A stretch of 64,000 nucleotides of DNA from an uncultured Pelagibacteraceae bacterium (GTDB lineage: Bacteria > Pseudomonadota > Alphaproteobacteria > Pelagibacterales > Pelagibacteraceae): positions 111,175-175,174 of the forward strand of contig CACJDW010000001.1 of assembly GCA_902592275.1 (NCBI GenBank), read 5' to 3'. Shown piece after piece: positions 7,699 through 28,517 of the stretch (position 1 is the first letter of the stretch; each line of letters opens with the position of its first letter). Made by a program: the position numbers and the translations under genes. The notes beneath the pieces were generated by a model that worked only from the letters and a program-made list of their open reading frames with translations, was not told the DNA's origin and did no database searches.

Positions 7699-9711
7699 CA
7701 TTCTCATAAATTCAGCTTGATCTATAACATTTATTTTTAACTTTTTAGCATTGTCTATTTTCTTTTTGGTTGGCTTGTCTCCAATTATTAAATAATTTAA
7801 TTTCTTAGAGACACTGCTAACTGTTTTGCCCGAATTTTCTTCAATCAAAGACTTTAATTCTGCTCTACTAATACCATTTAATTTTCCAGTAACTAAAAAG
7901 GTTTTATTTTTTAATAAACCATCTTCAGAATTTTGAATAGCATTTTTAACTACTAAAACTTTTTCTAATTCATTCAAAACTTTTATGTTAGTTTTATTTG
8001 AAAAAAAACTTTTAATAGAATTTACTTGTGTTTCACCAATGCCATCAATGTTTAATAAATCTTCATAATCACTTTGAACAGATAAATTTTTAAATTTTGA
8101 AAATGATGTAAAATGTTTTGACAACAATTTTGCATTCTCTAATCCTATATGTCTAATTCCCAAAGAGTAAATTAATCTTTCTAAAGAAATATTTTTTTTT
8201 TGATTAATTGAATATATTAAATTTTTGACAGATAATTGACCCCAGCCATCTAGTTTTTCAATTTTTGAATAATCTAATTTAAATATATCTTGAGGATATT
8301 TTATAAATTGTAATTTCCAAAAATTTTCGACTATTTTTTTTCCAAAACCGTCTATATTAAAAGCCTCTTTTGAGACAAAATGTTTTAATTTTTCAATCGA
8401 TATTTTGTCACAATAATAACCTTCGCTAGAACATCTCCTAACTGCATCAACTTTTTTTGTTATCTTATTAAATTCTTTAATTGTTTTTGATCCACACGAT
8501 GGACAATTTTCTGGAAAAATAAATTTTTTAGAATTTTTTAATCTTTTTTTTATATCTATAGAAAGTATGTGCGGTATGACATCTCCCGCTCTCTCTATAA
8601 CAGCTGTATCACCTATTCTTATATCTTTTCGGTTGATTTCATCTTCATTATGCAATGTTGCATTCGAAACTACAACACCACCAATATTAATTGGCTTTAT
8701 CTTTGCAACTGGAGTTAAAGCTCCAGTTCTTCCAACTTGAATCTCTATGTCTAAAATTTGAGAAATAGCTTTATTAGATGAAAATTTATGAGCAATGGCC
8801 CATCTAGGAGCATTAGCAACATTTCCCAATCTTTTTTGCATTGCAAAATCATTAACTTTGTAAACTATTCCATCTATATCAAAATCTAAATCAGCTCTTT
8901 TTTTTTCAATTTCTTGATAATTTTTCATTAAATTTTTGACACCTGAATTTAAAGTATTTAATGGGTTTGTTTTAAATCCCCATTCATTTAATTTTTTTAA
9001 AAAATCGGATTGATTATTAACTATTAAACCCTTTTCATATCCAAATGTATAAGCAATAAATTTTAAAGGTATTTTTTTTGTTTGTTCTGGATCTTTTTGT
9101 CTTAGTGAACCTGAGGCCGCATTTCTTGGATTGGCAAATTTTTCACTAAGTTTTTCAAAATCACTATTTTGAATAAAAACTTCTCCTCTTATATCAATCT
9201 CCTTTGGAAAATCTTTTGATAAAATTATTTTTGGAATATCATTTATAGTTAAAAGATTTTCAGTAATGTCTTCCCCTTCTTTGCCATCTCCTCTTGAGAG
9301 ACCTTTAAACAATTTGCCTCTTCTATATATTAGTGAAGCAGATATACCGTCAATTTTAGGTTCAGCACTATATTGAATTTCAAACTTTTGATTAATTGAT
9401 AAAAAATTAGTTATTTTTTTCTCAAAATTTATCAAATCATCCTCAGAAAATGCATTACTTAAAGATAACATGGGAACTTTATGAGATACTTTTTTAAAAA
9501 TTTTTGAAGGTTTAAAACCAACCAGGTTAGATGGTGAGTCTTTAGATTTTAAAAAATTAAATTTTTTTTCTGAGTCAATAATATCTTTTTTTAAAATATC
9601 ATAGTCAGCATCCGTAACAACAGAAATATTATCGTTATAATATTTTCTATTATATTTTTTAAGTAGCTCTAATTTTTCATTATATTTTTTTTTGATTAAT
9701 TTTTTATCCAT
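7681..9711 (-). CDS. ligA: NAD-dependent DNA ligase LigA
   Basis: About 676 residues from the ATG at 9711, which forms TAGTATG with the bamD stop; a TTG at 9720 is an alternative. It seals nicks in replication and repair using NAD. Visible parts: N-terminal Ia domain; adenylation motif EPKIDG with the active lysine near 117; SRGDGKEGEDIT; OB fold; a zinc finger with all four cysteines (CPSC and a later C...C pair, about 400-430); helix-hairpin-helix repeats; and a BRCT domain in the last 75 residues. In this window it is the last gene of the dcw/lpxC/bamD run, an arrangement common in alphaproteobacteria. Confidence 0.97.
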   Translation of the reverse strand: MDKKLIKKKYNEKLELLKKYNRKYYNDNISVVTDADYDILKKDIIDSEKKFNFLKSKDSPSNLVGFKPSKIFKKVSHKVPMLSLSNAFSEDDLINFEKKITNFLSINQKFEIQYSAEPKIDGISASLIYRRGKLFKGLSRGDGKEGEDITENLLTINDIPKIILSKDFPKEIDIRGEVFIQNSDFEKLSEKFANPRNAASGSLRQKDPEQTKKIPLKFIAYTFGYEKGLIVNNQSDFLKKLNEWGFKTNPLNTLNSGVKNLMKNYQEIEKKRADLDFDIDGIVYKVNDFAMQKRLGNVANAPRWAIAHKFSSNKAISQILDIEIQVGRTGALTPVAKIKPINIGGVVVSNATLHNEDEINRKDIRIGDTAVIERAGDVIPHILSIDIKKRLKNSKKFIFPENCPSCGSKTIKEFNKITKKVDAVRRCSSEGYYCDKISIEKLKHFVSKEAFNIDGFGKKIVENFWKLQFIKYPQDIFKLDYSKIEKLDGWGQLSVKNLIYSINQKKNISLERLIYSLGIRHIGLENAKLLSKHFTSFSKFKNLSVQSDYEDLLNIDGIGETQVNSIKSFFSNKTNIKVLNELEKVLVVKNAIQNSEDGLLKNKTFLVTGKLNGISRAELKSLIEENSGKTVSSVSKKLNYLIIGDKPTKKKIDNAKKLKINVIDQAEFMRMLNKTS

Positions 9712-10600: not shown

Positions 10601-11521
10601 TTAAGCTATAGACTTTAAAAGACTTCGGTTTATTAAGGTGTGTGGAAGATTTCTTTCTTTTATCTCAATTATTGAAAAATTTTCTTTATTTTCAAAAACT
10701 TTTCTAAGTAACTTATTGGTTAGATAGTGGCCACCTTGAGAACATGTTACGCTGCCAATTATTCTGTATCCAGAAGTATATAAATCGCCTATGCAATCTA
10801 GTATTTTATGATTAACAAATTCTTTATCATTTCTCAAACCATCTTCATTTAATATATTATTATCTTTTACTACAATAGCATTTTCTAAACTTCCACCTTT
10901 TGCTAAACCTAGTTTTTTTATTGCTTCTATATCTTCAAACAAACAGAAAGTTCGTGAATTGAAAATTTCTTTCAAATCATCTTCGTAAACATTGATTTTA
11001 TTTCTTTGGTTTCCAATTAATTGATTATTATATTTTAATTCAAAATCTATATCTAAGCTCAATTTTGATGGTTTTATTTCAATACATCTTTCATTTTCTT
11101 TAAGAGTTACTTTTTGGTTTATCTTTATTATTTTAATTGGCGTATTGCTGATCTCTAATCCTGAAGGGATAATTTTTTCTATAAATTCTTTTGCCGAACC
11201 ATCTAAAATTGGCACTTCTTCATTATCAATTTCAACTATTGCATTATCTATACCTAGTCCAAACAAAGCACCCATTAAATGCTCAATTGTTGAAACTTTT
11301 ACTCCAAACTCATTGCAGATTGTTGTATTTAATGATGTGTTACAAACATTCATAAAATTTGGATAGAGAAGATTGTTTTGTTTCAAATCAACTCTTTTAA
11401 ATATTATGCCAGTATCAGGTTGTGCTGGTTTAACTGAAATTGTTACTTGCACCCCTGAATGCAAACCTACTCCAGAAAATTTTATTGGTTGTTTTACAGT
11501 TTTTTGGGTAAGATAATTCAT
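10601..11521 (-). CDS. lpxC: UDP-3-O-acyl-N-acetylglucosamine deacetylase
   Basis: A 306-residue zinc deacetylase and committed step of lipid A synthesis; the ATG at 11521 is preferred over a TTG one codon upstream. Zinc and catalytic residues are visible: His in STIEHLMGALFG (about 78), and His and Asp in NHKILDCIGDLY. The late GGHYLTNKLLR segment is also typical. Its presence implies that lipid A is made. It follows ftsQ and the ftsA-like gene, where ftsZ would normally come immediately before it; here ftsZ is missing from this spot. Confidence 0.96.
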   Translation of the reverse strand: MNYLTQKTVKQPIKFSGVGLHSGVQVTISVKPAQPDTGIIFKRVDLKQNNLLYPNFMNVCNTSLNTTICNEFGVKVSTIEHLMGALFGLGIDNAIVEIDNEEVPILDGSAKEFIEKIIPSGLEISNTPIKIIKINQKVTLKENERCIEIKPSKLSLDIDFELKYNNQLIGNQRNKINVYEDDLKEIFNSRTFCLFEDIEAIKKLGLAKGGSLENAIVVKDNNILNEDGLRNDKEFVNHKILDCIGDLYTSGYRIIGSVTCSQGGHYLTNKLLRKVFENKENFSIIEIKERNLPHTLINRSLLKSIA

Positions 11522-11587
11522 CAAGACTTTTTAAGTCAAATTAACAAATTTTTAAAAACAACAAATATTACAGGAAAAAACAAAAAG

Positions 11588-12289
11588 TTAATTAAATAGT
11601 TGAAAAAATCTCTCAAAAAAACCTTTTTTAGTTGTATTTTTTGGTACTATTTCAACTTCATTATAATTTTCACCGTTAATTATTCTACAAATTTTCTTTG
11701 AAAATTGAACCTCTTCACTGGTGAAAGTATTATTAATAAAACTTTGACTTAAAATTTTGTTTATCTTTATCTGATATTTTTCTAGGATCTTCTCAATTTT
11801 AGATGAAAAATTATTGGCAACAAATATAAACTCGACCTCTAAAGAAAAATTTTTAACTTTAATTTTTTCATTAAATGACGAATAATTTTGTCCATTAATT
11901 AAGTAATTTTTCACCTCTATATGCAGAATTTTTTGATCTTTGTAATTTTCAACAAATAAATCTTTAACTTCTCTAAGAGTATTTTCTAAATATTTAAGAT
12001 TCGTTTGCTCTTGATAATTCCTTTTTTTTGTTCCAAATCTTATTTTTTTTATTTCATTACTTTCAATGATTAAAAAAATATTATTTACAAATTTTCCAAT
12101 TAATTTTTCAATTTTAAAAATGTTTTTATCGAGAAATTTGTCTAATATTTCTAGGTCTAACTGCTCTTCATTATTAGATAAAATTTTATCCTCGTATATA
12201 TTGTTAGAATTACTTGTATCAAATAAATAGATTTCAAAACTTTCATTAGTTATATTTAAATAAGTGTGAAAATTTAATTCATCAGTCAT
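11588..12289 (-). CDS. Reduced FtsA-like protein (1A/1C region plus C-terminal amphipathic tail)
   Basis: A 233-residue protein at the ftsA position (ftsQ - this - lpxC). Residues about 121-208 can be laid on FtsA: ILHIEVKNYLINGQ resembles the FtsA VLHVIPQEY-ID-Q stretch. EVEFIFVANNFSSKIEKILE resembles the 1C end. Residues 188-208 (NTFTSEE...IINGEN) resemble the FtsA AVLTEDE...DIGGGT. The phosphate-1 loop DIGT is replaced by NITN (12-15), and the protein stops just after the phosphate-2 strand, so subdomains 2A/2B and ATP binding are gone. The last 13 residues (KKGFFERFFQLFN) resemble the FtsA membrane-targeting helix. Homology is my own alignment by eye; if wrong, this is an unknown division-cluster protein. 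It overlaps ftsQ by 8 bp. Confidence 0.55.
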   Translation of the reverse strand: MTDELNFHTYLNITNESFEIYLFDTSNSNNIYEDKILSNNEEQLDLEILDKFLDKNIFKIEKLIGKFVNNIFLIIESNEIKKIRFGTKKRNYQEQTNLKYLENTLREVKDLFVENYKDQKILHIEVKNYLINGQNYSSFNEKIKVKNFSLEVEFIFVANNFSSKIEKILEKYQIKINKILSQSFINNTFTSEEVQFSKKICRIINGENYNEVEIVPKNTTKKGFFERFFQLFN

Positions 12290-12953
12290 TTAATATTATT
12301 TTTTTTGGAATTCTTGCATCAATTATTTTTAAATTATTTAAATCAATATTATTTAAAAAAAGAAATGCATAATTTAAAGACTCTTTTATATTTTTTTGAG
12401 ACAATTTTATAATAATACCATTTTTTAATTGTAAATCCCATCGTTTAGATGGAAAAAAATAAAAATTTTGAATCTCGCTATATGAAAAATTTGAGTCATC
12501 TAAAATATTTTTAAAAGTTAAAAATTCTTTGACATTTGGATTACCGAAAATAAAGGGTAGATCATTTTTCAATAATTTATTTTCAGATAATTTACCGTTT
12601 GATCCGATAATTTGAATTTTTTCGTTTTTATTTATTTTAGCTAAAAATTCAGTTTTTTTTAATTCAATATTTAATGATGATGGATATTTCTTAAAAATTT
12701 CATATTCCTCTACTAATGCATTAGAATTAATTAGATTTGTAAGCCCAATTGAATCAAGAAAGAGTATATTTTCTAAAGATAATTTTTTTATATCATTAAA
12801 AATAATTTTGTTATCAACTTCCTCTAAACCAGAGACTTTAATATTTTTAATTTCACTTATACCAATTTTTTTTAATTCAATATTATTTATCGAGCCAACT
12901 AATAAGAGAACAAAGAAATAGGTTAAAATTTTTTTACCTTTTCTTTGATGCAT
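12282..12953 (-). CDS. ftsQ: Cell division protein FtsQ
   Basis: A 223-residue bitopic membrane protein: short basic cytoplasmic tail (MHQRKGKK), one membrane helix (about 9-25), then a POTRA domain (ISEIKNIKVSGLEEV...) and a beta domain ending near ARIPKKI. FtsQ links early and late divisome proteins by binding FtsL and FtsB. Sequence similarity is low but length, architecture and position after ddl are all as expected. Its start lies inside the end of ddl (20 bp overlap), and its end overlaps the ftsA-like gene, suggesting coupled translation. The N-terminal cytoplasmic part is very short. Confidence 0.85.
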   Translation of the reverse strand: MHQRKGKKILTYFFVLLLVGSINNIELKKIGISEIKNIKVSGLEEVDNKIIFNDIKKLSLENILFLDSIGLTNLINSNALVEEYEIFKKYPSSLNIELKKTEFLAKINKNEKIQIIGSNGKLSENKLLKNDLPFIFGNPNVKEFLTFKNILDDSNFSYSEIQNFYFFPSKRWDLQLKNGIIIKLSQKNIKESLNYAFLFLNNIDLNNLKIIDARIPKKIILND

Positions 12954-20698: not shown

Positions 20699-23542
20699 TT
20701 AATTCAATCCTTTCAGATCTTTTACTATGTTGTTGAATCCTGTCGCAAGTGAGGCCTTAATCATTAAATAATCATTATTATTTAAATCTTTTCTAATCAA
20801 TTCAATAATTTGAGATTTGTTTAATAAAATCCTGCCTTTTTTAGCTTTTGAGACACCCGCAAATATTATAGATGCCATTTTACCTTTGACAAATACCTTG
20901 TCTATCTTGGTCTTATTAATTATTGGAGCAATAGATTTATGAAGTTTTTTAGAATGACTACCGAGCTCTAACATGTCGCCAATTAATAAATATTTATTCG
21001 ATTTTTTAGAGTTTATTTTGTCAAAATTTTTAATTGCTGATTTTAATGATAGAGGATTCGAATTATAACTCTGATCAATTAAATTAATTTTTTTATTATT
21101 AAATTTTACTACAGAATGATCCCCTCTTCCCCCAGGAATTTTGAAATTAAGAAAAATATTTTCATTTAGTTTAAATATATTTTTATAAATACTAATAACT
21201 GCTAAAGCAGCAAGTGTATTATATATATTGTTTTGAAAATCGTTTGATAACGTGAAATACTTTTTTTTATTATTTAACTGAATGTTAATTTTAAATTTTT
21301 TTCCAAAAGTCTTTGTATTAATTAATTTAATGTCTGCTTTCTGACTTTTGATACCAAAGGAAACAACTTTAATTTTATTTTCTTTGGCAATATTTTTATG
21401 TAATTGAAAATAACTATCATCTGCATTCAATACGACATAACCATTAGGTTTTACGTTGTTAATAATTTCAGATTTTGCCAAAGCAATTTGTTTAATATTT
21501 TTAAAATTTTTAGCATGTGCATAATTTATATTTGTTATTACTCCAACATCTGGTTTTATTATTTTTGACAAATAATCAATTTCACCTTTTTTATCCATTC
21601 CAACTTCTAAAATTCCAAATTCATCATTTTGTTTTAGATTGAAAAGACTCAAGGGAACTCCAAATTTATTGTTATAAGATTTTGGAGAAATACTAACTTT
21701 TGAAATTTTACTTAATGCATTGCCCAGCAATTCTTTAAGTGTAGTTTTGCCACAACTACCTGTAATAGCTATAATATTTGTATCTATACTTTTTCTAAAA
21801 ATTTTCGAAATATCTGTTAAGAATTTTAAAGTATTTTTAACTTTAATCTGACGATTTTTATTTAATTTATTTTGAATTTTGTTTACTACAGCTAATGATG
21901 CTTTTCTCTTGAATGATTGTGCAACATATTTATTACCGTCATTTTTTTTTCCTCTAATAGCAAAAAAAATATCGTTTTTAGTAACTTCTTGAGAATTAAT
22001 TCTTGCTGTTTTAAAAGATACGGAGGGAGACAATTTTTTAATTTTAGCTGCCTCTTTAACAACATTTAATTTTAAATTATCTGATAAATTTTTATTTTTA
22101 TGCTTAATAGCATTTAAAATTACCTTTCTATCTGAAAAGAAAATTTTCTTATTTCCAATATCTTGCGTTTTCTCATGGCCTTTTCCGGCTACTAATAAAA
22201 TATCACCTGAATTCAAATTATTAATGGCTTGAGTTATTGCTATTGCCCTATTAGATATTTCAATAATTCTTTTTTTTTTAATTCCCTTTTTTATATCTCT
22301 TCTTATTTTTTGAGGATTTTCAAATCTAGGATTATCATTTGTAAGAATGATACTGTCTGCAAAATCACTAGCTATTTTACCCATTTTTGATCTTTTATTT
22401 TGATCCCTATTTCCTCCACAACCGAATAGCACTGTGATTGTTTTATTAGGAAATTGTTCTCTAAGATTTAAAAGACACGTTTTTAAAGCATCAGGCGTAT
22501 GAGCATAATCGAGAATTACTTTTGATTGATTTTTAATTTTACCTATTTTTTCAAATCTTCCTTCAACTGGTTTCAATTTTGGAATTGTATTTAAAATTTT
22601 ATTAAAACTTACACCGCTATATTTTGCAGCAATTATTGCCATTAAAACATTTTTTAATTGTACTTTTCCTATTAAATTTAAATTTAGATCCTGTATTGAA
22701 CTATTTAATTTAATTCTTAGAACTTGCCCCTCTCCTTTAAAGTTATGAGATAAAAGCTCTAGATTATTTTTCTTATCATTTAGTGTATGTAATTTTAATT
22801 TCTTATTAATTGTAATTTTTTTTATATTTTTAAACTCTGGAATTAATTGATCTGTAATTACATTGCCTCTTTTTTGAATTAGTTTTTCAAATAAATAAAG
22901 TTTTGCTTTTAAATAATTTCTTAAATTTTTATGATAATCAAGATGATCCTGGGATAAATTGGTAAATATACCTGAATTAAACTTCAAACCATCTAATCTA
23001 TTTTGTTTCAAACCATGACTTGAGGCTTCCATGATTACATTTTCTATTTTTTGAGTTTTTAACTGAGTCAAAATTTTAGCTAATTTAATTGGATCTATTG
23101 TGGTATTAGATAAATTCAAATTAATTCTTTTTGATTTAACACCTAATGTACCAATTGAAGCAACTTTTTTATTATTTAATTTTAATAATTGATAGTAAAA
23201 ATCAGCAACTGACGATTTTCCATTTGTACCTGTAACTGCAATCAAATTTTTTGGTTTTTTATGATAAATTTTGAAAGCAGTTTCAGCTAATAATTTTCTT
23301 ATATTAGTTGTATAAATATATAAAATTCCATTTTGAAAATCATTTCCTTTTTTTTCAGTTACAATAATTTTAGATCCTTTTTTAACTGCTTCTGGAATAA
23401 ATTTATTACCGTCAAAACTATTGCCTTTGATTGCAAAAAAAACATTATTTTTTTTTATGCTATTTGTGTCAAATGAAATTCCTGAAAAATAAAAATTTTT
23501 ATAATTTTTGTTTATGTTGTGAAAATAATTTCCTAAGAGCAT
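20699..23542 (-). CDS. murE-murF: MurE-MurF fusion: bifunctional mDAP-adding and D-Ala-D-Ala-adding Mur ligase
   Basis: A single 947-residue open frame holding two complete Mur ligases. Residues about 1-480 are MurE: SFDTNSIKKNNVFFAI, P-loop VTGTNGKSSVADFY near 104, EASSHGL, LDYAHTPDAL, and DNPRFENP near 402. That DNPR motif is the one that selects meso-diaminopimelate. Residues about 490-947 are MurF: NSQEVTKNDIFFAIRG, P-loop ITGSCGKTTLKELLG near 594, LEVGMDKKGEI, and IDQSYNSNPLSLKSA. The region between is a short Lys/Asn-rich linker with no internal stop. The two steps are consecutive in the pathway, so fusion may channel the tripeptide. It lies between ftsI and mraY where the separate genes normally sit. 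Confidence 0.93.
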   Translation of the reverse strand: MLLGNYFHNINKNYKNFYFSGISFDTNSIKKNNVFFAIKGNSFDGNKFIPEAVKKGSKIIVTEKKGNDFQNGILYIYTTNIRKLLAETAFKIYHKKPKNLIAVTGTNGKSSVADFYYQLLKLNNKKVASIGTLGVKSKRINLNLSNTTIDPIKLAKILTQLKTQKIENVIMEASSHGLKQNRLDGLKFNSGIFTNLSQDHLDYHKNLRNYLKAKLYLFEKLIQKRGNVITDQLIPEFKNIKKITINKKLKLHTLNDKKNNLELLSHNFKGEGQVLRIKLNSSIQDLNLNLIGKVQLKNVLMAIIAAKYSGVSFNKILNTIPKLKPVEGRFEKIGKIKNQSKVILDYAHTPDALKTCLLNLREQFPNKTITVLFGCGGNRDQNKRSKMGKIASDFADSIILTNDNPRFENPQKIRRDIKKGIKKKRIIEISNRAIAITQAINNLNSGDILLVAGKGHEKTQDIGNKKIFFSDRKVILNAIKHKNKNLSDNLKLNVVKEAAKIKKLSPSVSFKTARINSQEVTKNDIFFAIRGKKNDGNKYVAQSFKRKASLAVVNKIQNKLNKNRQIKVKNTLKFLTDISKIFRKSIDTNIIAITGSCGKTTLKELLGNALSKISKVSISPKSYNNKFGVPLSLFNLKQNDEFGILEVGMDKKGEIDYLSKIIKPDVGVITNINYAHAKNFKNIKQIALAKSEIINNVKPNGYVVLNADDSYFQLHKNIAKENKIKVVSFGIKSQKADIKLINTKTFGKKFKINIQLNNKKKYFTLSNDFQNNIYNTLAALAVISIYKNIFKLNENIFLNFKIPGGRGDHSVVKFNNKKINLIDQSYNSNPLSLKSAIKNFDKINSKKSNKYLLIGDMLELGSHSKKLHKSIAPIINKTKIDKVFVKGKMASIIFAGVSKAKKGRILLNKSQIIELIRKDLNNNDYLMIKASLATGFNNIVKDLKGLN

Positions 23543-26566: not shown

Positions 26567-28048
26567 TTAATTTTTTTGTCTTCTTAAGAATGCTGGTATC
26601 TCAAGATCATCTTCTTCCTCTTGCTCTGAAGTCAATAAATCTTCAGGGCTTGAATTATCAGATTCTGAACTAAATAAATCTGGTGCGTCTGAGTCAACTC
26701 CGAATTCTTTTAAATCATTAGAAGTTTCTTCTTCGCTGTTAATATCTTGATGATCTTCATGAGTAGTTTCCATAGCTTCTTGAGCAAAAGATTTCTCCAT
26801 TTCATTAACTGAATTATCCTGAACTATACTCTCGCTTTCCATATTAGTGTTTTGGACAACTTCTTCACTCATCATCTGATTATGAGAACTCTCAGTTTGT
26901 TGTTCTTGTATAATCTCATTTTCAAGCTTTAAAGCATTCGCACCATGTGTAATTGGATTTGATGCTGTTGTATTTGAAAAATTAAATGATTGAGATGATC
27001 CCATATTTGAAAAATCAGAGTAACCTGGATTACGGTTTTGAATTCTATGAACCATATTTACAACAGATTTTGATTCTGGCTGTTGCCCATCTAAAGAGGT
27101 AGCAACAATTGAAACTCTCATTTTTCCATCTAGCTCCGTATCAGTGATTGCACCAATAATTAACTCTGCTTCAGGGTCAACTTCTGCTCTTACTTTATTT
27201 ACAGCTTCATCAACTTCAAAAAGTTTTAAATCTTTACCTCCAGTAATATTTACTAGTAATCCTTTTGCACCTTTTAAAGTATAGTCATCTATTAGTGGGT
27301 TGCTGATCGCCATCTCTGCAGCTTTTAGAGCTCTACCTTCTCCTTCAGCTTCTCCAGTTCCCATCATAGCTTTACCCATCGCTGCCATAACAGTTTCAAC
27401 GTCAGCAAAATCTAAATTGATTAAGCCGGGTCTGACCATCAAATCGGTTATACTTTGAACACCATGCATTAAAACATTATTTGAAAGATTAAAAGATTCT
27501 TCAAATGTTGTTTGTTCATTGGCTATTTTAAATAAATTTTGATTTGGAATAACAATTATTGTATCAACATGTTTTCTTAATTCTTCCAAACCTTGTTGTG
27601 CTCTTCTCATTCTTGATGGGCCTTCATATAAAAATGGAAGAGTCACAACACCTACCGTTAAGATATTTAATTCTTTAGCAGCCCTAGCGATGACATGAGC
27701 AGCACCAGTGCCCGTTCCACCACCCATACCAGCTGCAATAAAAACCATGTTTGCACCTTGAAGTGTATTTACAATTTCATTCAAAGATTCATCTGCTGCA
27801 GCTTGACCAATATCAAGTTTTGCACCTGCTCCTAAACCTTTTGTTAAATTTAATCCAATTTGAATTCTTGTTTTTGCTTTACTAAGCTTCAAATCTTGAG
27901 CATCAGTATTTACTGCAATAAACTCTACTCCCTGTAGATTATTTTCTATCATTTCATTAATTGCATTTCCTCCAGCTCCACCAACTCCTAAAACTAGTAG
28001 TCGTGGCTGTAGCTCTTTTATCTCTGGTGCTTTAAAATTAATTGTCAT
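26567..28048 (-). CDS. ftsZ: Cell division GTPase FtsZ, in an unusual dcw position
   Basis: A 493-residue tubulin-like GTPase that forms the Z ring. GTP-binding signature [13 protein letters not shown] lies near 105-117; [14 protein letters not shown] (20-33), NTDAQDL and the T7-loop region NLDFADV are also present. A long acidic, Ser/Gln/Asn-rich linker (about 325-478) leads to the C-terminal peptide [14 protein letters not shown], the docking site for partners such as FtsA. It lies 10 bp after mraZ and 18 bp before rsmH, so it should be transcribed first from the MraZ-controlled promoter, whereas ftsZ usually follows ftsA near lpxC. Confidence 0.97.
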
Positions 28049-28058
28049 CTTTTATCCC

Positions 28059-28517
28059 CTATTGTTTGTTATGTTGAAGCTCCCATTTAAGATTACCACG
28101 ATTAATATTTGCTTTTTTCCTCGCTGTTATCTTAAATTTTTCAAATGCTGTTGGTTCCCATATTTGAAATGTTTGGCCTTGACCAACAAACAACATGCTG
28201 TTTTTTATTTTTGCATGTTTTAGTAATTTTGATGAAAGTGAAATTCTTCCCTCGCTATCAAATTGTAAATTTATACTTTCTGCTAATATTGATGTTGCAA
28301 AGTAATCTCTTTTTTCCTCGAAGGGATTTAAGGAGTCAATTGCTGAAGAAATTTTTTCAATCCTATCTTGGGAGCATGCTTCTATAGATGAGTTATTAAA
28401 TGATGGATAACATATAACACCATTGTAACCTAAGTTGGATAAATGTGACCTAAAACTAGCAGGCACAGATACTCTCCCTTTTTTGTCTAATTTGTTTTCG
28501 TATGTTGATAAAAACAT
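28059..28517 (-). CDS. mraZ: Transcriptional regulator MraZ
   Basis: A 152-residue protein with two SpoVT/AbrB-type half domains, each with its conserved core: DKKGRVSVPASFR (about 11-23) and DSEGRISLSSKLL (about 88-100). MraZ is a ring-forming DNA-binding protein that represses its own operon by binding repeated TGGGN boxes. Three such boxes lie 31-55 bp upstream of this gene, so autoregulation is likely. First gene of the dcw cluster. Confidence 0.95.
   Translation of the reverse strand: MFLSTYENKLDKKGRVSVPASFRSHLSNLGYNGVICYPSFNNSSIEACSQDRIEKISSAIDSLNPFEEKRDYFATSILAESINLQFDSEGRISLSSKLLKHAKIKNSMLFVGQGQTFQIWEPTAFEKFKITARKKANINRGNLKWELQHNKQ

Follow-up and report, generated by a model that had tools for sequence, protein, structure and literature searches.

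A conserved, domain-precise reduction of FtsA in Pelagibacter

FtsA is regarded as an actin that binds ATP, forms filaments and attaches FtsZ to the membrane. A precedent for a membrane scaffold that does not form filaments is the cytoplasmic domain of EpsL/GspL, a component of type II secretion that differs from the protein described here by its transmembrane segment and its other partners. Both have a shortened actin-like fold, and the EpsL/GspL domain (PDB 1yf5, 1w97, 4pht) is the next family after FtsA in structural alignment. PilM (PDB 5eou, 2ych) is likewise a 1C-type actin-like protein, and according to PMC7613929 the PilN tail occupies the same IA–IC cleft in which FtsA binds the tail of FtsN. 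Unlike the protein described here, PilM keeps its nucleotide-binding half (the PDB titles give ATP and ADP forms), and it belongs to type IV pili. The same paper assigns the longitudinal contacts of the FtsA filament to IIA–IIB and the lateral contacts to IC. Earlier work, as cited in PMC4281207, reports that deletion of 2B abolishes FtsZ binding and that 1C is required for the recruitment of FtsQ and FtsN, and PMC8998562 describes an interaction of FtsA with FtsW or FtsI. Among the titles and abstract openings found in the open-access literature on FtsA, SAR11 and Pelagibacter, there was no mention of an FtsA devoid of domain II, nor was there any in passages of PMC2877005; such a protein may still be published.

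Here, a window of 64,000 nucleotides from an uncultured Pelagibacteraceae bacterium was analysed (the window is this whole stretch, positions 111,175 to 175,174 of contig CACJDW010000001.1, assembly GCA_902592275.1). In the place of ftsA, between ftsQ and lpxC, it holds a gene of only 233 codons, referred to as the stub. The bacterium belongs to a group within SAR11, whose members are very abundant in the ocean. With FtsA (TIGR01174; PDB 7q6d, 7q6f/7q6i, 1e4f/1e4g, 4a2a, 3wqt) the stub shares the position after ftsQ, the predicted 1A and 1C folds, the last 1A helix and a probable C-terminal amphipathic helix; in contrast, it has about 60% of the length and is without 2A, 2B and the ATP motifs. 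The full-length FtsA proteins of the same genus (G066, 369 aa; G030, 371 aa) occupy the same slot and can be aligned with the stub over residues 1–190 and at the C-terminus. They differ from it by a D or E at phosphate 1 and by a block of 141–161 residues with a mostly DIG-type phosphate 2. The stub is a real, conserved and domain-precise reduction of FtsA.

The gene in the ftsA slot and its relationship to FtsA

The plus strand of 11588–12289 is full of stops, and the 233-codon open reading frame lies on the minus strand. The first 8 bases of the gene, from its ATG on, are shared with the end of ftsQ, and a gap of 63 bases separates it from lpxC, which follows. The genes and parts of the stub are as follows (window coordinates, strand, description).

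10601..11524, minus: lpxC (Pfam, 4.9e-93)
11588..12289, minus: FtsA stub, 233 aa (open reading frame, profile, AlphaFold model, fold search)
11591..11629, minus: residues 221–233, KKGFFERFFQLFN, amphipathic, probable membrane-targeting helix (hydrophobic moment, invariant F)
11678..11704, minus: residues 196–204, taken as the last 1A helix (helix in the model, structural alignment ranges)
11708..11713, minus: junction at residues 193/194, where 141–172 residues of full-length FtsA (2A and 2B, with the phosphate-2 motif) are gone
11726..12289, minus: residues 1–188, first part of 1A, 1C and return to 1A (PDB FtsA profile alignment, model, fold search, full-length relatives)
12239..12256, minus: phosphate-1 position, residues 12–17, NITNES, acid replaced
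12282..12953, minus: ftsQ (Pfam FtsQ_DivIB_C, 8.7e-06; POTRA_1, 1.5e-05)
26567..28048, minus: ftsZ, 493 aa, ending in the conserved C-terminal peptide

The same-strand cluster runs mraZ, ftsZ, mraW, ftsL, ftsI, a 947-aa open reading frame, mraY, murD, ftsW, murG, murC, murB, ddl, ftsQ, stub, lpxC, the names being given by eye except for ftsQ, lpxC and ftsZ, which were searched. The stub thus sits next to ftsQ in the division and cell-wall cluster, in the slot of ftsA, as the initial annotation had it. This synteny extends to relatives: in 80 regions chosen to hold both stub and full-length classes, and hence not a random sample, the order ftsQ – X – lpxC was found in the 77 where both flanks were detected (ftsQ was missed in L250 and L251, lpxC in L262). 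At the head of the cluster (window 26567–28517), about 14 kb from the ftsA slot, ftsZ is flanked by genes that look by eye like mraZ and mraW; it is found within the region (up to 20 kb) in 72 of the 80 genomes, in the stub and full-length classes alike. The 947-aa open reading frame (window 20699–23542) stands in the place of murE and murF and looks, again by eye, like a MurE–MurF fusion.

The window protein is matched by the NCBIfam profile TIGR01174 (ftsA) with E = 0.00024, residues 45–184 falling on positions 45–182 of the 371 in the profile. Its score of 20.3 bits misses the curated cut-off of 175.85 by far, a cut-off passed by just 9 of the 147 genomes of the order. Across 51 homologues, i.e. 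the window protein and 50 of the 51 stub-length frames from 80 named loci (omitting L154 for its longer start), the same profile reaches E <= 1 in 40 cases, at best 9.5e-08. The Pfam family SHS2_FTSA (1C) gives weak matches in 15 of the 51 (best 0.016), and a Pfam scan of the window protein alone returned no FtsA match, its sole row being RNA_pol_Rpb1_5 at 4.8. When a stub-only profile was run against PDB sequences, three rows appeared at E <= 10, all of them FtsA and all weak (best 0.016), and a profile that combined 12 stubs with 10 full-length relatives found five FtsA sequences at 1.4e-14 to 8.3e-09. Profile–profile comparison by hhalign of the 12-stub profile with a full-length relative of the genus yielded 99.7% over residues 1–188. 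The protein is therefore related in sequence to the FtsA profiles, while the curated TIGR01174 score is not reached.

Structure prediction points in the same direction. AlphaFold2 models of the window stub (51 sequences; pLDDT 85.5, pTM 0.80) and of a second stub of 32% identity (37 sequences; pLDDT 85.4, pTM 0.81) were searched with Foldseek. For both, FtsA filled the top 19 rows, at best E values of 6.1e-12 and 5.1e-12, and PilM followed. Structural realignment of the first model gave VIA Z of 12.0–14.5 for 11 FtsA rows, followed by cyto-EpsL (10.9) and PilM (10.7). Residues 6–207 of the model were placed onto residues 8–389 of V. maritimus FtsA (200 aligned) and residues 4–206 onto residues 6–388 of E. 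coli FtsA (201 aligned). From these ranges and the sequence alignment, we read the model as skipping domain II and reaching the final 1A helix of FtsA. A fold of 1A plus 1C is thus predicted by the models. The resemblance to FtsA proposed in the initial annotation is above chance by the TIGR01174 match, the 40 of 51 homologues, the PDB rows and the fold searches, and a fold unrelated to actin-like proteins is not what the two models suggest.

That an unrelated protein has come to occupy the ftsA slot is improbable in the extreme. The low sequence identity and the lack of a Pfam FtsA match for the window protein would agree with such an origin, but profile, fold and intermediate sequences all point to FtsA. 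As far as its identity alone is concerned, the window gene is almost certainly an ftsA orthologue.

Extent of the excision

Alignment of 39 stubs with 39 full-length proteins locates the missing part precisely. At a junction common to all 39 stubs, 38 have no residue and one has a single residue, where the full-length proteins have 141–172. Sequence and predicted structure support the removal of the whole of domain II (2A and 2B) from an ftsA gene in its ancestral slot, and they likewise support what is left: domain I, which comprises 1C and 1A together with the C-terminal helix of 1A, carried on an amphipathic tail. The proposal that 1A and 1C were kept and the ATPase half was lost is hence borne out by the alignment with full-length relatives and by the predicted fold. 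Subdomains 2A and 2B, the latter with the site for the FtsZ tail, are absent. The ATP-binding motifs are missing as well: the acid of phosphate 1 is replaced, and phosphate 2 and the adenosine motif went with the deleted block. The NITN noticed earlier at the phosphate-1 loop fits this pattern, as an acid at that position occurs in none of the 39 stubs and in all 39 full-length proteins (D in 33, E in 6).

The C-terminal part required a different assignment from the one first given. In the initial annotation IINGEN was set at the position of DIGGGT (phosphate 2), and a MAFFT alignment, with the PDB alignment built on it, placed it there as well; both were overruled by a local-pair alignment and a C-terminal profile, in which the stretch is the C-terminus of FtsA. 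Specifically, IINGENYNEVEIVPKN of the stub aligns with the C-terminal LGEGLNKQEVVVVPKK of full-length FtsA of the genus, i.e. downstream of the deletion. Since IINGENYNEV thus corresponds to the C-terminal end of the full-length proteins, the gene represents an internal excision with the tail kept. A profile of the stub C-terminus matches the C-termini of 33 of the 39 full-length proteins at E < 0.01, versus 2 of 780 shuffled decoys (36 of 39 versus 89 of 780 at E <= 10), many of these matches covering the membrane tail alone. Once the tail is excluded and stub L229 dropped, the match is significant for 3 of the 39 (3.4e-4 to 1.1e-3) and for none of the 780 decoys (best 0.052); the C-terminal assignment accordingly rests on the L184/L263 group, the spacing and the structural alignment. 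Over the final 12 residues, amphipathicity exceeds that of 95% of shuffled versions of the same stretch in 38 of the 39 stubs and in 35 of the 39 full-length proteins, and F225, F228, F229 and F232 are invariant in 51 sequences. Confidence of the AlphaFold model is low at residues 221–233. Based on these sequence properties, the membrane-targeting helix suggested from the outset has probably been kept.

Neither a full FtsA nor a free domain II was found elsewhere in the window's own genome (84% complete). A PF14450 match there was considered as a full FtsA and rejected, the 344-aa frame reading as MreB by eye, with the apparent usual MreB neighbours next to it; the domain-II profile likewise gave a single hit in this genome, read as MreB. 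Seven stub-type relatives of 97–100% completeness (one of them, G012, with a broken frame) agree: a domain-II profile detected no domain II beyond MreB-size frames, of which each genome has one (345–366 aa, judged by length alone), and a weak match to a frame of 642–652 aa in two. In five full-length genomes, the same profile gave an additional match at the ftsA locus.

Occurrence in the genus and history of the locus

With the window protein alone as query, a homologue was found in 22 of 61 genomes (its own counted), all within its genus. A profile of stubs and full-length proteins was then used to survey 115 genomes of the genus, 114 of at least 90% completeness plus the window's own at 84%, and matched 106 of them: 65 with a stub (220–245 aa), 30 with a full-length protein (370–401 aa), two with broken frames and nine cut by contig ends. 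Full-length FtsA thus persists in about a third of the intact loci (30/95), which limits the initial description of the protein as unlike any known, even though the stub itself is borne out. An apparent graded series of shorter FtsA, from 179 down to 27 aa, was discarded, as it consists of the nine contig-cut genomes (G175, G209, G213, G101, G162, G186, G074, G150 and G157). No match to the profile was obtained in 9 of the 115 genomes, seven of which also gave none for lpxC; the other two, G071 and G082, have lpxC close to the end of a contig. A candidate domain-II-only protein in G071 (TIGR01174 202–314) extends up to base 9085, where the contig stops next to lpxC, and was reassigned as a cut full-length type. 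Among the 80 named loci, which are the best 80 of 513 by LpxC and hence kin of the window, the interval was readable in 52, giving 51 stubs of 220–244 aa and one frame of 121 aa (L134).

In the region set, the full-length relatives in the ftsA slot measure 368–391 aa within the genus and 396–410 aa in other genera of the family. A frame of 378–420 aa was found in 16 of 18 genomes of these other genera, and the remaining two frames begin at a contig end. The 1C profile PF02491, applied across the class, matched 133 of 144 genomes, every frame being at least 340 aa long; the 11 genomes without a match include the window's own, so that diverged stubs elsewhere in the class would escape and the comparison is a weak control.

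Nine neighbouring cell-wall genes were combined in a tree of 79 rows, from which L204 and L213 were omitted because their data were short. It requires three changes of the stub/full-length label and puts the stubs in four places, with a full-length clade (L184, L185, L187, L193, L263) nested among them. Repeated excision or allele exchange is implied by this tree: domain II was cut out more than once at the same boundary, or it was cut out once and alleles were then exchanged. A single excision, after which the allele spread or was re-imported between lineages by recombination at the ftsA locus, has in our estimate an even chance. Its junction is identical in all 39 stubs, and the gene tree calculated without the deleted block unites these 39 in one clade (support 81/86). 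Against it, a 32-row subset of the gene tree needs two changes and rejects neither topology (p 0.41 for the stub clade, p 0.093 for the species-tree crown), and stub L229 is nearest by path to the full-length L184/L263 group. Conversely, domain II may have been excised independently three or four times within one genus at the same domain boundary, to which we assign slightly under an even chance. The nine linked genes split the stubs into separate clades and reject a single stub clade (AU p 3.4e-68, 32 rows), and by our own reading of this tree four losses are needed if loss is irreversible. Repetition of one junction is demanding, however, unless it is dictated by structure; single-gene trees vary between two and five changes, and the nine genes are neighbours rather than a genome-wide sample.

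The locus is also a hot spot of assembly breaks. Of the contigs of the 80 named loci (L084–L163), 27 stop inside the stub gene span, 66–648 bases upstream of lpxC, as compared to one in ftsQ and five further upstream within 6 kb. Low GC content or homopolymers as the cause is unsupported, the stub gene being no more extreme than ftsQ.

Division partners and function of the stub

Division components, the alternative tethers ZipA and SepF among them, were searched in ten genomes, six of them stub-type or with a broken frame. At E <= 0.001, ZipA_C was found in none of the ten and in the E. coli control, and SepF in none of the ten and in 7 of 14 controls, including B. subtilis. Of the components named in the initial annotation, ZipA and SepF were not found in this set, whereas ZapA was found in all ten. 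No FtsN was recognised in the ten genomes. SPOR proteins were found in five, all stub-type or with a broken frame; as FtsN they were rejected, measuring about 250–280 aa with, by eye, a lipoprotein-like start, no bitopic layout and an RlpA-like appearance. The only SPOR match of the window's own genome is a lipoprotein-like protein of 253 aa (L272, G000:C8:18943–19125). In the 72 of 80 genomes with FtsZ inside the region, the FtsZ tail peptide reads EIPAFLRRQ in 35/35 stub genomes and EIPAFLR[RK]Q in 35/35 full-length and 2/2 broken-frame genomes.

The reading we consider best, and on the whole probable, is that of a membrane adaptor without ATPase function that serves later divisome proteins, while FtsZ is held in some other way; this estimate includes the identity as ftsA, and we infer the functional half of it. 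An adaptor is suggested because, of the known working parts of FtsA, the cleft and the lateral face alone survive in the stub. With the phosphate-1 acid, phosphate 2 and the adenosine loop all gone, it would not bind ATP as FtsA does. The absence of the IIA–IIB contacts would preclude actin-type protofilaments, and with the 2B pocket missing the FtsZ tail could hardly be taken up in the known way. Most likely, the stub would be a constitutive, membrane-bound adaptor whose 1A–1C cleft holds the cytoplasmic tails of downstream divisome proteins, be it FtsQ, the FtsW/FtsI side or an unrecognised FtsN. It may perhaps dimerise through 1C, and the membrane attachment of FtsZ would fall to another protein or to a new contact. 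Counting against an adaptor, no FtsN was recognised that could be the classical partner of the cleft, and retention of the FtsZ tail peptide in stub genomes is also what a stub still binding FtsZ would lead one to expect. Such binding is the main rival, in which the stub remains a Z-ring anchor that takes the FtsZ tail through a new site, either on 1A/1C or on a surface bared by the loss of domain II, with the amphipathic tail as tether. The retained tail, the peptide kept in all 35 stub genomes and the fact that neither ZipA nor SepF was seen in the ten genomes speak for an anchor. Still, the stub is without 2B, where FtsA is known to bind FtsZ, and published 2B deletions abolish FtsZ binding (PMC4281207); moreover, the peptide is equally kept in full-length genomes, so no adaptation to the stub is apparent. 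We thus consider an anchor unlikely, and the "minimal Z-ring anchor" initially proposed is unproven, as what is missing is the very part that binds FtsZ in other species.

In the wider perspective, a deletion of 2B, reported to stop FtsZ binding, has been made by nature in the majority of the species sampled from one dominant genus of the ocean (65/95 intact loci). Stub species beside sister species with a whole FtsA offer a ready comparison of which half division needs, and the stub hints that an FtsZ tether is still to be found in cells that rank among the smallest free-living ones. Tentatively, and with some doubt on our part, the division ring of most Pelagibacter may operate without an actin-type FtsA, the nucleotide-binding, polymerising and FtsZ-holding half having been cleanly excised, possibly several times, and 1A–1C with a membrane tail sufficing for the essential job. 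If so, FtsA would at its core be a membrane hub serving the septal synthase. Its ATP binding, its filaments and its hold on FtsZ would be replaceable, and a so far unseen FtsZ tether would exist in these cells.

A decaying remnant, i.e. a stub without function left while ftsA is being lost from streamlined genomes, is highly unlikely. Broken frames in G012 and G204, the 121-aa frame in L134 and fast evolution (the best identity of the window protein to other rows of a 78-row set is 53%) would fit decay. In contrast, 65 intact stubs face two broken ones in the genus survey, residues of the tail and core are invariant in 51 sequences, and the frame breaks, at or near A-runs, may be sequencing errors. 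By a simple counting method on hand-picked pairs, dN/dS of the stub is 0.11–0.32 in 11 close pairs, close to the 0.08–0.29 that ftsQ shows in these pairs, which argues against a pseudogene and largely refutes decay. For lpxC, ftsZ and murC, the same comparison gave 0.03–0.11, and for full-length ftsA 0.14–0.17 (3 pairs). Each broken locus (L248:17807–18567 in G012 and L247:1434–2190 in G204) has one frame break, located by eye at or near an A-run and attributable to sequencing error or early decay.
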